Source: Thermoanaerobaculum sp. (GTDB lineage: Bacteria > Acidobacteriota > Thermoanaerobaculia > Multivoradales > UBA5704). From it: DNA of 64,000 nucleotides. The stretch lies in contig JAJKHS010000144.1 of the NCBI GenBank assembly GCA_021154885.1, positions 62,001 to 126,000 of the forward strand, in the 5' to 3' direction. Positions within the stretch are counted from its first letter, which is position 1, and every line of letters begins with the position of its first letter. Below the pieces are notes generated by a model, which ran no database searches, was not told the DNA's origin, and saw nothing but the letters and a program-made list of their open reading frames with translations. Both the position numbers and the translations under genes were made by a program. Positions 1,968-63,132 of this stretch are shown piece after piece.

Positions 1968-3272
1968 ATGGCAAAGCGACTCGGCTGGCTGTTGTTCCTC
2001 GCTCCCTCACTGCTTTTCGCCCAGGGCAACCCCGCAGGCGACTGGCAGGTCATGACGGATATCTACGGCAACCCGCTGCACCAGAGACTGGTGCTGACGA
2101 GCGAGGGCGGCAAGCTCACGGGCGAGCTCGCCGGCGACAAGTTGGAGGGCACGGTGAGCGGCAAGGCCGTCCACTTCGTCGCCAAGGGGGACAACCCCGG
2201 CGACACCGCCGAGTACACCGGCACCCTGGAGGGCGACACGATCTCCGGTCAAGCCGTGCTCACCGACGGCGACGATAAGTCGCGCACACTCGGCGCGTTC
2301 ACCGCGCGTCGCCTGCCGCAGCGCCCGCCGGGTCCGCCGCGACGACACGAATTCACGCCGTCCACCTACTATCGCCAGTTCTCGGCGTCCACCCAACCGG
2401 TGCTAACGGTCTGGCCCGGGGACACGATTCACACCACGACGGTCGATGCCGCCGGCGCCGACGCCGGCGGTGTGACGCGCGTGCTCGGAGGCAATCCGCA
2501 AACGGGGCCGTTCTACGTCGAGACCGCCTTGCCGGGCGACGTTCTCGCCGTCCACGTCAACCGCTTGCGATTGAATCGCGACTACGCGATCAGCGATGAC
2601 CAGATCGTCGGCCGTGCCTTGAATTCACAGCTCGCGGTGAAAATGAAAGATACGGGCAAGACCATTCGCTGGCATCTCGATCTCGAACGCGGCGTGGCGA
2701 CTCCCGCCAATCCGACCGATCATCTGAAGCAGTACACCGTGCCTCTGCGCCCCATGCTGGGCTGCGTCGGAGTGGCGCCCGGTTTTGCCGCCGCGCCTTC
2801 TCCCACGGGCGATTCGGGCCGGTTCGGCGGCAACATGGATTTCAACGAGATCGTGGAAGGCGCGACCGTGTACCTACCGGTGCTGCAGCCCGGCGCGCTG
2901 CTGTACGTCGGCGACGCTCACGCCGCGCAGGGCGATGGCGAGCTCACCGGCAATGCGCTGGAAACCTCCATGGAGGTGGAGCTCACGGTCGACGTGCTGA
3001 CGCATAAATCCATTCTTTCGCCGCGCGTCGAATCGCCCACGCACCTCATGGCCGTGGGCCTGGCCGGCTCGCTCGACGAGGCTCTCCGCACCGCCACGGC
3101 CAGCCTGGCGCAATGGCTGGAGCAGGATTACAAGCTCACACCGCCGGAGATCGCGCAGGTGCTCGGCACCGCCATGGAGTATTCCGTCAACGAAGTCGCC
3201 GACCGCAACGTCGGCATCGTGGCCAAGATCAAGAAAGAACGGCTGGCGCCGCTGGGGGCTGCTAAGCCCTAA
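1968..3272 (+). CDS. Secreted acetamidase/formamidase family protein
   Basis: A 434-residue protein. Residues 1-20 form a signal peptide ending near LLFAQG. Residues 25-115 form a beta-rich domain of the kind often seen in secreted Acidobacteriota proteins. From residue 125 on comes the FmdA/AmdA fold: THPV-like start (ASTQPVLTVWPGDTI), GPFYVETALPGDVLAVHV, GDSGRFGGNMDFNEI near residue 285, and GDAHAAQGDGELTGNALE near residue 315. Family members hydrolyse formamide or short amides to ammonia and the acid. The H-A-A-Q-G-D-G-E motif and the Asp-rich G-G-N-M-D motif are intact, so it is probably active, but the substrate is open. The export signal is notable because well-studied relatives are cytoplasmic. 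Confidence 0.85.
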   Translation: MAKRLGWLLFLAPSLLFAQGNPAGDWQVMTDIYGNPLHQRLVLTSEGGKLTGELAGDKLEGTVSGKAVHFVAKGDNPGDTAEYTGTLEGDTISGQAVLTDGDDKSRTLGAFTARRLPQRPPGPPRRHEFTPSTYYRQFSASTQPVLTVWPGDTIHTTTVDAAGADAGGVTRVLGGNPQTGPFYVETALPGDVLAVHVNRLRLNRDYAISDDQIVGRALNSQLAVKMKDTGKTIRWHLDLERGVATPANPTDHLKQYTVPLRPMLGCVGVAPGFAAAPSPTGDSGRFGGNMDFNEIVEGATVYLPVLQPGALLYVGDAHAAQGDGELTGNALETSMEVELTVDVLTHKSILSPRVESPTHLMAVGLAGSLDEALRTATASLAQWLEQDYKLTPPEIAQVLGTAMEYSVNEVADRNVGIVAKIKKERLAPLGAAKP

Positions 3273-3535
3273 ACCTGTCTGATTTGTTCCTGAGCGATTT
3301 CCGCTTCTGTCGGAGTAGAGCGGCTGACGGCCGCGGCGACCTGCTCGCGGAGAACTTGCAGGGTCAGGTCGATCGTCCGCCGGTGGGTACGGAACGAGCG
3401 TTTCGATCTGCCGGAGGAACCGCTCGGAGGAGGCGACCACCGCGTTGCGCAGGTGCTTGCGCCGGGTAGCCCCGGGATCGAGCGGACGGGCGGGTTGGAC
3501 GGCATTGGTTGTCTCACAATAATCGGGACAGTCAA
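3269..3535 (-). pseudogene. Probable frameshifted remnant of a small gene
   Basis: Downstream of the PEP-mutase gene the minus strand shows protein-like sequence split over two frames. One frame gives ARPLDPGATRRKHL then SSERFLRQIETLVPYPP. The other continues with TIDLTLQVLREQVAAAV and ends EAEIAQEQIRQV at a stop near 3269. Joining them needs one frameshift around 3390-3410. The N-terminal piece loosely resembles the start of PLP-dependent decarboxylases/aminotransferases, but far too little remains to name it. A TTG-initiated 88-codon frame spans the region, but its N-terminal half is compositionally noisy. Confidence 0.35.
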
Positions 3536-60180: not shown

Positions 60181-61743
60181 CTACCGTCCGCAGGTCGCGA
60201 AGGTGGACGTATCCTGCACCGGCATGGCGGCCCGGCCGGATGGATTGGTGTACTGCTTGACGATGCCCGTCCGGGTGTCGGTCACCGTGGCGGTGAAGTC
60301 GACGTCGGTGGTGGCCGCGAAGTAGACCCAGAAGGCGTTGAAGCCGTTGCAGGCGTCGAGGACCTTGATGAGCATCTCGGCGTTCGAGGGGTCGAAGAAC
60401 CAGAAGGTGGCCGAGCTCCCGGAGAGCCGGGAGCCGTGGCCGGCGCCGATCAGGCCCTGGCTCGTGCGCCAGACGATCTCCACCTTGAAGCGGCCGCCGG
60501 CCAGGCAGAGGGTGCGGTCGTCCTCGACGCAGGAGCTGGTCGAGCCATCGTCATCCAGGATGGTGAGGGTCGCCGAGCCGCGGGTGGCGTCCACCGTGGC
60601 GCCGCCGGTGGGATCGACGAGGCTGAGGAGCACGGTCTCGTTCCCCTCGGTGGCGGCGTCGTTGGTGATCGGCACCTCGACGATTTTCCGGCTCTCGTCG
60701 CCGTTGCCCCAGGTCAGGATGGTGGAGACGGCGCTGTAGTCCTCGCCCGCCTTGGCGCTGCCGTCGGCGGTCTGGAAGCGGACGGAGACCACGCCGTGAT
60801 CGCCGCCCGAGCGCTCGACGGCGATGCGGGCCACGCCGGCGCTCTCGATCACCTGGAAGCTCCGCTCGTCGAATTTGATCGTCCCGGGCTGGCCCGGGTG
60901 GTTGCCGTTGTCATCGTCGTCGCCGTTGCGGCCGCCCTCCAGGATGGTGAGCACGGCGGAGGAGCGCTCGCCGTCGAGCGCGGCGCCGCCGGTGGGCGCG
61001 GAGAGGGTGAGGTGGACGGCCTCGCTCCCCTCGACGATCGAGTCGTTGACGATGGGGATGAGGATGACCTTGCGGCTCTCGTCGCCGTCGGCCCAGGAGA
61101 GGGTGCCGGCGGTGGCGGTGTAGTCCTGGCCGGCGGTGGCCGTGCCGTCGCTGGTGGCGTAGTGGACGGTGACGGCGCCGTGCTCGCCGTGCTCGCGCTC
61201 CACGGTTACCACCGCCTGGCCGGCGTTCTCCAGCACCTGGAAGTCGCTCTGGTCGAACTTGATCGTGCCGGCGCCGCTGCCGCCGTGATCGCCCCCGCCG
61301 TCATCGCCCCCTCCCCCGCCGCTGCCGCCGTCGCTGGCGAGGATGAGCAGGTCGGACGTGCCGCGGGCGGCATCCACCGTCGCGCCGCCGGTGGGGCTGG
61401 AGAGGGTGAGGTGAATGGTCTCAACGCCCTCGGCCACGGTGTCGTCGAGGATGGGGACCGCGAAGGTCTTGCGGCTCTCGTCGCCCGCGGCCCAGGAGAG
61501 GGTGCCGGAGACGGCGGTGTAGTCCTGACCGGCGGTGGCCGTGCCGTCGCTGGTGGCGTAGTGGACGGTCACGGCGCCGTCCTCGCCGCCCGAGCGCTCG
61601 ACGGTGATCACCGCCTGGCCGGCGCTCTCGGCAACCTCGAACGTGGCCTCGTCGAACTTGATCGCGCCGGGGCCTTTCGCCACGGCTGGAGCGGCCGTCA
61701 GGGCCAGGGCGCAGAGTGCGAACAGGGTTTCCAGTCTCTTCAT
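60181..61743 (-). CDS. Secreted protein with three Calx-beta domains and C-terminal unnamed domain
   Basis: A 520-residue exported protein with GAGGAGG upstream and a signal peptide ending APAVAKG. Three Calx-beta domains (residues 25-140, 155-270, 285-395) each carry the D-G-T-A-T-A-G-Q-D-Y-T or similar motif, preceded by AVTVHYATSD or VVSVRFQTAD and followed by SGTLSWAAGDESRK-type strands and GVETIHLTLSSPTGGAT. They probably bind calcium. The last 110 residues are the same unnamed domain as in the BACON protein at 22302 (CVEDDRTLCLAGGRFKVEIV, ATFWFFDPSNAEMLIKVLDA, FWVYFAATTDVDFTATVTDT). The intergenic region upstream holds the CAATG/CATTG array. Confidence 0.85.
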   Translation of the reverse strand: MKRLETLFALCALALTAAPAVAKGPGAIKFDEATFEVAESAGQAVITVERSGGEDGAVTVHYATSDGTATAGQDYTAVSGTLSWAAGDESRKTFAVPILDDTVAEGVETIHLTLSSPTGGATVDAARGTSDLLILASDGGSGGGGGDDGGGDHGGSGAGTIKFDQSDFQVLENAGQAVVTVEREHGEHGAVTVHYATSDGTATAGQDYTATAGTLSWADGDESRKVILIPIVNDSIVEGSEAVHLTLSAPTGGAALDGERSSAVLTILEGGRNGDDDDNGNHPGQPGTIKFDERSFQVIESAGVARIAVERSGGDHGVVSVRFQTADGSAKAGEDYSAVSTILTWGNGDESRKIVEVPITNDAATEGNETVLLSLVDPTGGATVDATRGSATLTILDDDGSTSSCVEDDRTLCLAGGRFKVEIVWRTSQGLIGAGHGSRLSGSSATFWFFDPSNAEMLIKVLDACNGFNAFWVYFAATTDVDFTATVTDTRTGIVKQYTNPSGRAAMPVQDTSTFATCGR

Positions 61744-61839
61744 GAGCGTGTCCTCCTCGCCGGTTGAGACAGCGGAGGAGGCCCGCGGGAACAGCCTTCT
61801 TCATCCGGGCTCTCTTTCCGGCCTCCTCGCCCGCTACTC
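61744..61839. other. Leader between Calx-beta gene and CAATG array
   Basis: The ribosome site of the Calx-beta gene lies here; no other gene or clear promoter on the minus strand was identified. Confidence 0.4.
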
Positions 61840-62108
61840 CATTGCGCGGAGCCTTCGCGCTCTCCGGGAGAGAATTTTCCAGACTCCGGAGGCGCTACCC
61901 CAATGTGGGAGGCGCTTTCTCATTGCGCCTGGCTCCAAGCACAATGTGAAAACGCCTCTGCACATTGGGAAATCGCCAACACAATCCTCTGGACGATTTT
62001 TGCAATGCATGGAGCTTCCAGCACAATGAGATATAACCACTTCAGCAATGCACAAAGAGTACCATCCATTGCTCGGATCTTCAGAGACATTGAAATCAGC
62101 GTTTCAGC
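61840..62108. repeat. Phased array of CAATG/CATTG motifs, about 21-bp period
   Basis: CAATG or its reverse complement CATTG occurs at 61840, 61901, 61921, 61942, 61963, 62003, 62024, 62046, 62067 and 62088, with CAATC at 61982. Successive spacings from 61901 are 20, 21, 21, 19, 21, 21, 22, 21 and 21 bases, and the 61-base gap before that equals three units in which the motif has decayed. Many sites read CACAATG. A second, weaker GC-rich block (GGCGCT, GGCTCC, CGCCTC, GAGCTTC) lies about 10 bases before each motif. Two helical turns per unit puts all sites on one DNA face. There are no open reading frames here; the region separates the Calx-beta gene from a short plus-strand transcription unit. 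Confidence 0.85.
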
Positions 62109-62176
62109 CCTTAGAACGCCCCGCAGAGCCCTGAAGCAGCCCGCGTACTACCCAAAAACGGGTCTAATCTTCCCAA

Positions 62177-62205
62177 TTGACATCCGTGTCGACCTAACTT
62201 AGAGT
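62177..62205 (+). promoter_or_regulatory. Promoter of the short transcription unit
   Basis: A consensus TTGACA (62177-62182) and TAGAGT (62200-62205) separated by 17 bases. It starts 85 bases after the last CATTG motif and points toward the terminator at 62456, predicting an RNA of about 275 bases. Confidence 0.6.
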
Positions 62206-62328: not shown

Positions 62329-62423
62329 ATGAGAACGTCAACCCGCGGCCGCGGGTGACCCGCCGCAAAAAGCCGGTGGAGACGCCGACTCCTCCGCCGA
62401 CTCCGCCTCCTGCCGCCAAGTAA
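62329..62423 (+). other. Short basic, proline-rich frame, disrupted small gene or sRNA region
   Basis: GGAAGGAAAG precedes an ATG at 62329, but that frame stops after nine codons. The next frame, starting two bases later, stays open to a stop at 62423 and encodes NVNPRPRVTRRKKPVETP with a tail TPPPTPPPAAK. A one-base frameshift would join them into a 32-residue basic, proline-rich peptide. Alternatively the RNA is non-coding. A strong terminator follows. Confidence 0.35.
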
Positions 62424-62455
62424 CGCCAGGCAGCAGGACTTTCACCCTGAAGCAC

Positions 62456-62488
62456 ACCGGGGGGCCGAAGGCCCCCCGGTTTCGTCTT
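62456..62488. terminator. Strong bidirectional terminator
   Basis: A perfect 11-bp stem (ACCGGGGGGCC with GGCCCCCCGGT) and a GAA loop, followed by TTCGTCTT on the plus strand. It closes the short plus-strand unit and the convergent PIN gene. Confidence 0.85.
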
Positions 62489-62906
62489 AAGCGTTGGGCA
62501 GGAGTCGGAAGCGCTTGCAGTGTTTCGGCCTCACCGCTCCAAAGTGCCGCCGGTCCAGGGTGATCACAATCTCGGTCTGAAATCGCTCGGCCATCGCAAT
62601 GACCGAAGCATCGGTAGCACCAAGAGGGCAATTGGCGTACTGCTCGACCAGTTCGGCCATGCGGGACCAATCCTGGGGGGAGGGAGCCTGAACGTCGAAG
62701 GTCTCAAGCCCTCTCAAGAATTGCGCTTCCGTCTGGGCCCCTCGCCGCTGTTGGATCAGGTAGGCAGCCTCGGCTACGCAAAGGACCGGGATGACCAGAC
62801 GGAGCCCCGGGGTCTGGAGAGCTGTCAGGCAGGCACGGTGGGCGGGATCCGCCGAGTTCGCCACAGCGACCAGCGGACCGCTATCCACGATCGCGATCGA
62901 TGTCAT
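62487..62906 (-). CDS. VapC-like PIN-domain toxin
   Basis: A 139-residue PIN-domain nuclease. The first acidic residue is in AIVDSGPLVAVANSADPAHR, the next in VIPVLCVAEAAYLIQQRRGA (Glu), and the later Asp pair in PLGATDASVIAMAERFQTEI and VITLDRRHFGAVRP. These four acidic positions bind Mg2+ for RNA cleavage. The gene overlaps the antitoxin by 26 bases on the same strand. Toxins of this type usually cut tRNA or rRNA when the antitoxin is degraded. All expected residues are present, so the pair looks functional. Confidence 0.85.
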   Translation of the reverse strand: MTSIAIVDSGPLVAVANSADPAHRACLTALQTPGLRLVIPVLCVAEAAYLIQQRRGAQTEAQFLRGLETFDVQAPSPQDWSRMAELVEQYANCPLGATDASVIAMAERFQTEIVITLDRRHFGAVRPKHCKRFRLLPNA

Positions 62907-63132
62907 CAGCCCAGGTCTGCGCGAGAGCTTCGTCCAGGCGTTCGGCAGGCATCATGTCCGGATCGTTGAAGAGGCCCGCCCAAGGGATCTGGCGGGGCTT
63001 CTCCGCAGAGCCCACGAGCCCCTCCTCAATGAACCGGCGGGCAATGTCGGAAACGCTGGTCTGCCGTCGCCGAGCCTCGGAGCCGAGCAACTCTGCGAGA
63101 TCATCGGGGAGCGTGATCGTCGTACGCCGCAT
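62881..63132 (-). CDS. Ribbon-helix-helix (CopG/VapB-like) antitoxin
   Basis: An 83-residue protein: MRRTTITLPDDLAELLGSEA, then RRQTSVSDIARRFIEEGLVG, is a ribbon-helix-helix DNA-binding domain, followed by a toxin-binding tail (IPWAGLFNDPDMMPAERLDE, ALAQTWADDIDRDRG). The ATG at 63132 lies 6 bases from a -10 element, so the message is probably leaderless. Three GCATAC repeats at 8-bp spacing overlap the start and promoter, which fits autorepression by stacked RHH dimers. It is followed by the PIN toxin. Confidence 0.85.
   Translation of the reverse strand: MRRTTITLPDDLAELLGSEARRRQTSVSDIARRFIEEGLVGSAEKPRQIPWAGLFNDPDMMPAERLDEALAQTWADDIDRDRG

Follow-up and report, generated by a model that had tools for sequence, protein, structure and literature searches.

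Arrays of short palindromic cores, spaced at about two helical turns per repeat and lying mostly between genes, have been found in one bacterial genus, to which the class is restricted among the samples tested. At least seven kinds of such palindrome arrays could be distinguished, and we are highly confident that the class exists as described. The array from which the analysis started lies near the end of the window, the whole stretch of 64,000 nucleotides that was analysed.

The property that unites the arrays is geometry: about 7-23 copies of a dyad-symmetric unit, each spanning two helical turns (20-21 bp), follow one another, and the core differs by array type (CAWTG, GRGAANNTTC, TACGACGG, TCGCGA, CCGCGG/GGTGACC, CAGCAG..CTGCTG, AACGC..GCGTT or CAAGCTTG). 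The arrays, their period and dyad symmetry, their presence or absence between species and the core conservation in one orthologous pair are observations; protein binding, its cooperativity and a role are inferences. It is a tentative reading, given somewhat less than an even chance, that protein binding is the reason for the arrays, which would be putative docking platforms for dimeric DNA-binding proteins. Each unit, through its palindromic core, would be the site for one homodimer, with one dimer per two turns; successive dimers would occupy almost the same side of the helix, bind cooperatively and together build a filament or a wrapped nucleoprotein body at gene borders, working in a way comparable to plasmid centromere (ParR/parC) repeats or interspersed REP/BIME elements. 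The docking reading is favoured because the two-turn unit is constant across unrelated cores, is dyad-symmetric, has independent halves and has a conserved core at one locus. Against it stand the varying periods, weak phase keeping, a conservation that comes from one orthologous pair, the turnover of arrays and some exceptions in covariation, as do spacers that contribute to the predicted fold and the exact 21-bp period of several other-core arrays, which coding repeats would share; with so many cores, binding would moreover call for a set of proteins or for a single one recognising DNA shape. A more far-reaching version, in which about a hundred arrays are unified by geometry, each core type has its own dimeric protein, phased filaments form at gene borders and cores are replaced as in an arms race, appears rather unlikely.

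Arrays that share helical geometry and not sequence across a whole genome would be a new way to organise bacterial intergenic DNA, and would be naturally available material for experiments on how proteins bind cooperatively along one DNA face. Even if the arrays are satellites, dyad-symmetric growth at one preferred two-turn length raises the question of its mechanism.

The CAWTG array of the window and its surroundings

The array occupies positions 61840-62092, with no strand assigned, and comprises ten exact CAWTG sites and one CAATC variant. The sites start at 61840, 61901, 61921, 61942, 61963, 61983 (CAATC), 62003, 62024, 62046, 62067 and 62088, a recount that agrees with the first-pass annotation, in which eleven sites of one 5-base motif, one ending in C, had been noticed. 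The steps are, in order, 61, 20, 21, 21, 20, 20, 21, 22, 21 and 21 bp, with a mean of 20.8 bp over 61901-62088. Steps of 19-22 bp, mostly 21, had been claimed, and this holds from the second site on, whereas the first step is 61 and the register lacks a step of 19. The initial 61 bp correspond to three steps and contain two unit-sized slots without CAWTG (61845-61900, no strand). Since CAWTG is its own reverse complement, the orientation of a single site is meaningless, and the reported occurrence of the motif in both orientations reduces to a variable central A/T. Roughly half a unit away from each core there is a GC block, also noticed at first, though a weak one (GC 0.8 at unit positions 12-13); the block is broader in the congener G441.

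The regular CAATG/CATTG spacing is real and beyond chance. The longest chain includes nine of the ten exact sites, compared with at most three (reached once) in 3000 dinucleotide-preserving shuffles of positions 61780-62160, in which the mean CAWTG count was 1.06; the excess of the spacing over shuffled sequence, proposed earlier as a check, is thus present. When all 5-mers were considered, CAATG was the only one with at least six phased copies in the 64-kb window, and none reached this number in three block shuffles. In the whole 8.2-Mb genome (161 contigs), a pattern of three CAWTG with gaps of 14-18 gave 42 matches and the same pattern read backward gave none.

A divergent intergenic region with a promoter and a short terminated transcript had been described around the array, and this was confirmed at the level of pattern matches. 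A sigma-70-like promoter match (TTGACA-17-TAGAGT) lies at 62177-62205 on the forward strand (one found, shuffle mean 0.1) and a terminator-like hairpin of 11 pairs at 62456-62480 on the same strand (two overlapping found, shuffle mean 1.2). The stretch at 62329-62480, from promoter-like site to terminator-like hairpin, contains no clear long reading frame, only a possible 22-residue frame with a GTG start near 62352. Three neighbour genes are found on the reverse strand. The first, at 60181-61743, encodes a protein with three Calx-beta stretches (PF03160, 4.8e-74) and starts 97 bp from the array; the second, at 62487-62906, encodes a toxin-like PIN-domain protein (PF01850, 4.2e-10); and the third, at 62881-63132, encodes an antitoxin-like ribbon-helix-helix protein (PF01402, 3.3e-6), lies upstream of the PIN gene and overlaps it. 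Gene calls were frame choices by codon-position GC, with a Pfam check on ten proteins.

The link to a promoter and a short transcript is not general. Elsewhere, arrays were found within an operon, in what look like gaps between convergent genes (loci L013 and L018) and within a repeated element, and an operator function at promoters was dropped as an overall explanation. A reading as toxin-antitoxin operators was likewise reduced to a mere observation, PIN or other toxin-like genes being located on either side of arrays. Of the seven PF01850 matches in the sampled contigs (63 in the whole genome), three are no more than 1 kb away from an array. The PIN-gene loci near arrays are 62487-63132 in the window, C143:49407-50062 and C80:79050-79520 in the same genome, and C24:58837-59166 (within 1.4 kb); further arrays have other toxin-like genes, recognised by eye, in their vicinity.

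Distribution within and beyond the genus

The genus is represented by three draft assemblies, the window's own genome (G000) and its congeners G441 and G442; G443, G368, G108 and G386 lie outside the genus, and L numbers denote fetched loci. The 42 matches in the own genome fall into 11 loci, and a more decayed array at C94:33687 brings the CAWTG arrays to 12. A strict 20-bp form, with mostly A/T-rich triplets flanking the core, is found at seven loci (on C16, C24, C34, C42, C94, C100 and C143), and a 20-21-bp form at five (on C70, C80 and C89, at C144:123840, which is the array of the window, and at C144:274462). Comparable arrays in related genomes, also named at first as a check, were found in G441 and G442. 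Nine arrays, three of them from the own genome, went into a profile of the strict form that used sequence alone; at E 0.01 or better it retrieved seven loci from the own genome, five from G441, one from G442 and none from G443. Among 72 genomes of the order, CAWTG triples with gaps of 15-16 occur 40 times in the own genome, 30 times in G441 and four times in G442; the other 69 genomes yielded matches in two cases, one match in the first (a single match) and two in the second (a tandem repeat of like units). The six congener arrays that were fully read adopt an exact 20-bp grid of eight slots each. All eight slots are CAWTG in four of the six, L091 has one slot CCTTG and L204 one slot CAGAA, and CAWTGTTTCAG ends five of the six.

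Phylum-wide, CAWTG triples with gaps of 14-18 match 127 of 396 genomes, mostly one to three times, and the backward controls are partly similar in size. The larger counts come from G291 (22), G307 (15), G286 (14), G254 (11) and G051 (11); among the matches listed, those of G307 and some of those of G291 are repeats of like units. G254 and G286, from another family of the same class, have 11 and 14 loose triple matches compared to 4 and 3 in the backward controls. A scan of a genome-contig collection returned at least 119 stretches. Among the matches listed, arrays with varied units were confined to four congener contigs and locus L074, and the remaining stretches were, by unit identity, repeats of like units or single matches. 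The CAWTG pattern had no match in a plasmid collection and occurred in 29 stretches of viral contigs, two of them of low unit identity with a single match each. Locus L074 (positions 3082-3365 of the fetched sequence; CALJOK010000024.1) belongs to a Saprospiraceae MAG, an unrelated bacterium of another phylum, yet has the same core letters and step. It keeps a strict 20-bp grid on which, beginning at 3102, CAWTG fills 12 of 13 consecutive slots, the exception being TAATG at 3262, and its core AAACCAWTGGTTT comes with about seven variable bases.

Arrays with other cores were revealed by a search for chains of any 6-base core, with one mismatch allowed, on both strands, at a score of at least 6.5, a threshold that was fixed before the controls were seen and used in a single run. 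The own genome, sampled over 793 kb (contigs C144, C143 and C80 and C100:1-100000), had 12 clusters at steps of 19-22, compared with 0, 1, 1, 0, 1, 0 and 0 at the control steps of 11-14, 15-18, 23-26, 27-30, 31-34, 35-38 and 43-46. At the stricter scores of 7.5 and 9, the clusters at 19-22 numbered 11 and 4, versus 1 and 0 for three control ranges together. Three of the 12 clusters have a CAWTG core and nine have another. These include a GRGAANNTTC array (19 units, period 20.4), a TACGACGG array (19 units on 23 slots, period 20.7) and TCGCGA arrays at two loci (period 21.0), and further cores are CCGCGG, GGTGACC, CAGCAG..CTGCTG, AACGC and GTCGC. The density of about 15 arrays per Mb corresponds to about 120 in the own genome, extrapolated from a tenth of the genome. 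G441 (98 kb) contributed three clusters at 19-22 and none at three control ranges, one of the three being on a contig that had been chosen for holding an array; the array on that contig has the TACGACGG core known from the own genome. The TACGACGG arrays of the two species (C144:182085-182545 in G000 and L362 on C171 in G441) reside at loci that look different.

Outside the genus, no cluster was found at steps of 19-22 in samples of G368 (400 kb), G443 (389 kb), G108 and G386 (200 kb each); all other step ranges together gave four clusters in G368, two in G443 and none in G108 and G386. There was likewise no peak at 19-22 in 941 kb from 144 diverse bacterial and viral-contig records (4 versus 6, 6, 2, 2 and 2), which had been fetched for matching a CAWTG pattern that was masked before the count. 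No description of such arrays was seen among the open-licence papers listed. Since the phenomenon is confined to one genus in the sampled genomes, its origin may be recent and traceable.

Most of the 13 arrays examined for their setting lie in gaps between predicted genes. At C144:182085, C144:292570 and C144:306582, reading frames with some support run across the array or overlap part of it, and coding is possible for these frame-covered arrays, as an exact 21-bp period is also expected of seven-residue coding repeats.

Symmetry, conservation and turnover of the units

Of 14 arrays tested against permutation of the unit columns, five of them with the CAWTG core, 13 showed dyad symmetry of the whole unit (p 0.033 or less, uncorrected); the GTCGC array at C143:3906 failed this test (p=0.55). 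In a periodic array, one dyad per unit entails a second dyad half a unit, or one helical turn, away, and pairs of axes are therefore no second finding. The two halves of the unit do not covary in 39 pooled CAWTG units or in most other arrays when right halves are permuted among units, as expected of two half-sites each read by a protein. Exceptions are the array at C144:233814 on three axes and the GTCGC and CCGCGG arrays on one axis each.

The first-pass annotation had taken the step for exactly two turns and had suggested a protein array on one DNA face. The former is not supported, as periods run from 20.0 to 21.0 bp among arrays and thus do not keep to one helical phase. Phase keeping exceeded that of random order in one of seven arrays (p=0.026; 0.065 to 0.83 in the others), with double steps split by hand in four of the seven, which favours regularity. 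What stands of the latter is that the two-turn geometry recurs with different cores, which fits contact on one face.

The main rival to protein docking is a functionless burst of bacterial satellites, in which dyad-symmetric units were multiplied by slippage or unequal exchange favouring 20-21 bp and then decayed. In the two arrays given to Tandem Repeats Finder, units are grouped into longer repeats, with three units in 61-62 bp, six in 122-124 bp and, in one array, a further repeat of 186 bp. These show growth by block duplication, and an exact 21-bp period in several of the other-core arrays also speaks for a satellite origin. The preference for 20-21 bp is unexplained by it, and both the dyad symmetry and the constant grid of eight 20-bp slots in the congeners argue against it. 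The initial statement that the array is no satellite of identical units, and no CRISPR, is supported. The evolution of the core bears on this alternative from both sides. The arrays of locus L156 in G441 and locus L091 in G442 both precede one and the same gene, and the eight units of each match those of the other one to one. Only one of 40 core letters has changed, compared to 27 of 120 spacer letters (Fisher p=0.003), with spacing and unit number kept, and all differences fall at unit positions 7-17 save three single changes; the adjoining sequence is 8.1% diverged over 949 bases. Such a core, far better kept than the spacers, argues against a satellite. In four paralogous copies of a repeated element, pairwise comparison gave 13/210 core versus 84/630 spacer changes (p=0.004; the pairs are not independent), whereas the count of variable columns, 4/35 in the core versus 24/105 in the spacers, was not significant (p=0.22) and is in line with a satellite; one extra unit in two of the four copies was left out. 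Purifying selection on the core is suggested by good evidence at the orthologous locus and by weak evidence in the paralogous copies.

Comparison of gene junctions points to array turnover. A regulator gene and a kinase gene, identified by Pfam (other gene names in these comparisons were assigned by eye), overlap in two other genera (L209 and L210, the two resolved of five fetched loci); in the window's genus they are separated by an array, which has the 20-bp form in G441 and the 20-21 form in the own genome. Although these two genomes have regulators that are 88% identical, the intervening arrays share little visible likeness. After a GvpK-like gas-vesicle gene, an array is present in G441 and none in the own genome; just after the gene next to it, the own genome has an array and G441 has none. 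At the junction next to queG, G442 carries a CAWTG array; in G443 this junction has no array and its length is less by about 160 bp. In G441, the orthologue of this array has a different left neighbour, and the own-genome junction with that neighbour holds a different array of about 400 bp, in which CAAGCTTG-like cores fill 13 of about 20 slots of a 21-bp grid. Where the own genome has its GRGAANNTTC array, G442 has none. Arrays may thus be gained, lost or replaced between congeners, one junction having an array, none, or another core. Presence, absence and core change at one junction are also expected of a satellite, and weighing both sides we regard a satellite origin as possible, though on the unlikely side.

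A different working would be that of a single strand, RNA or ssDNA, in which units pair with one another to form long hairpins. The best stem of the window array, if single-stranded, is a long imperfect hairpin at 61895-61975 (no strand) in the predicted fold, and the fold of 61895-62040 has z-scores of -5.6 and -6.0 against dinucleotide shuffles. Predicted folds of this kind are very stable throughout (z -5.6 to -11.9 for eight strands of four arrays). Relative to permuted unit order, the two strands of the window array (taken as 13 slots) gave z -2.3/-2.9, L163 -2.2/-2.1 and L017 -1.8/-2.2, and the effect was seen mainly on one strand in L014 (-2.5/-1.1) and L018 (-2.0/-0.5). In 11 of 16 arrays, however, unit order was irrelevant (both strands in the range of z -1.5 to +1.3), which means that much of the stability of the fold comes from the dyad-symmetric unit itself. 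Shuffling the middle of the spacers weakened the fold in nine of 16 CAWTG arrays (both strands at z -2 or below, the lowest value being -7.5), and the spacers are therefore not free. Neither effect was observed for the species-conserved pair L156/L091, and the lack of covariation within the units of most arrays likewise argues against pairing, as does an Rfam scan of the window that returned no match. Overall, a single-stranded function appears improbable. The sole Rfam match in the loci of four relatives, an Acido-Lenti-1 RNA at L203:1859-1905 (38.5 bits, gathering 37), lies away from the array.

The arrays could also be bodies or binding ends of non-autonomous mobile elements. Four CAWTG arrays of the own genome, all of the strict 20-bp form, lie inside an element of about 700 bp whose copies (L011:5784-6545, L014:5718-7084, which is longer, L018:5857-6545 and L019:5922-6523) are 74-81% identical. 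Inverted ends of about 120 bp are present on both sides in three of the four copies and on one side in the fourth, and the end sequence has nine matches in the genome. The greater length of the queG junction with an array and the overlap of regulator and kinase genes where no array parts them are also what insertion would produce. MITE-like inverted ends or shared flanks were not seen for the other fetched CAWTG arrays of this genome (12 in total), which have few common spacer letters, and the non-CAWTG arrays vary in length. Y1 transposase genes (PF01797) occur in all four genomes searched, including G443, whose sample shows no arrays, and one weak match lies about 0.8 kb from the array at C143:104354; transposase genes do not appear to track arrays. 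On balance, a mobile-element origin for the arrays is quite improbable.

Comparison with known systems

CRISPR arrays consist of near-identical repeats of about 25-36 nt and unrelated, newly acquired spacers. The arrays described here have a short constant motif and variable 15-bp spacers, which would suit guide-RNA arrays of the CRISPR or TIGR-Tas kind. CRISPR was ruled out, as the core is 5-11 bp long and the spacers are orthologous one to one between G441 and G442 and evolve by substitution, with 27 of 120 letters changed. TIGR arrays have two alternating repeats of 8-12 nt, 9-nt spacers and a Nop-domain Tas protein, and resemble the present arrays in combining a short repeat with a short variable segment in 5-15 units (PMC12045711). 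The present arrays differ in a single palindromic core in place of two alternating repeats, in spacers kept by descent and in the absence of a Nop protein (PMC12045711). The Nop family (PF01798) was detected in none of the three draft genomes of the genus, compared with six of 14 controls, and with one core repeated throughout, TIGR-Tas was ruled out as well. A guide-RNA array of either kind therefore has next to no chance of being the explanation.

BIMEs are bound by gyrase, IHF or other proteins. REP, BIME and REPIN elements are similar to the present arrays in being mostly intergenic palindromes with many copies per genome, several families and regular spacing (PMC2817692; PMC3733652). Compared with these elements, the present arrays are long tandems of two-turn units whose sequence differs between arrays, and lack the constant GTAG or CGTC tag. 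No constant tag was seen when 14 unit consensus strings were read by eye; CGTC occurs in the TACGACGG consensus and in one TCGCGA consensus, a weak gtag in the GTCGC consensus, and neither in the five CAWTG ones. Bacterial minisatellites, or VNTR loci, are tandem, mostly intergenic and variable between species, and have higher-order repeats. The present arrays differ in that the core is kept while the spacers diverge (in one orthologous pair) and in that one unit length is shared by many unrelated sequences.

In plasmid ParMRC centromeres, the parC site consists of tandem repeats of 10-20 bp bound by dimeric ParR, those of pSK41 being 20 bp long (PMC9426499). The likeness lies in tandem repeats read by a dimeric protein, with the DNA wrapped in a solenoid, the protein and the wrapping being proposals for the arrays described here (PMC9426499). 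The difference lies in many chromosomal loci and in dyad-symmetric units with 9-15 variable bases. No parM or parR gene was recognised next to arrays among the ten neighbour proteins given to Pfam, three of which matched no family. ParR centromeres would thus be the nearest known system in supposed working, not in membership.
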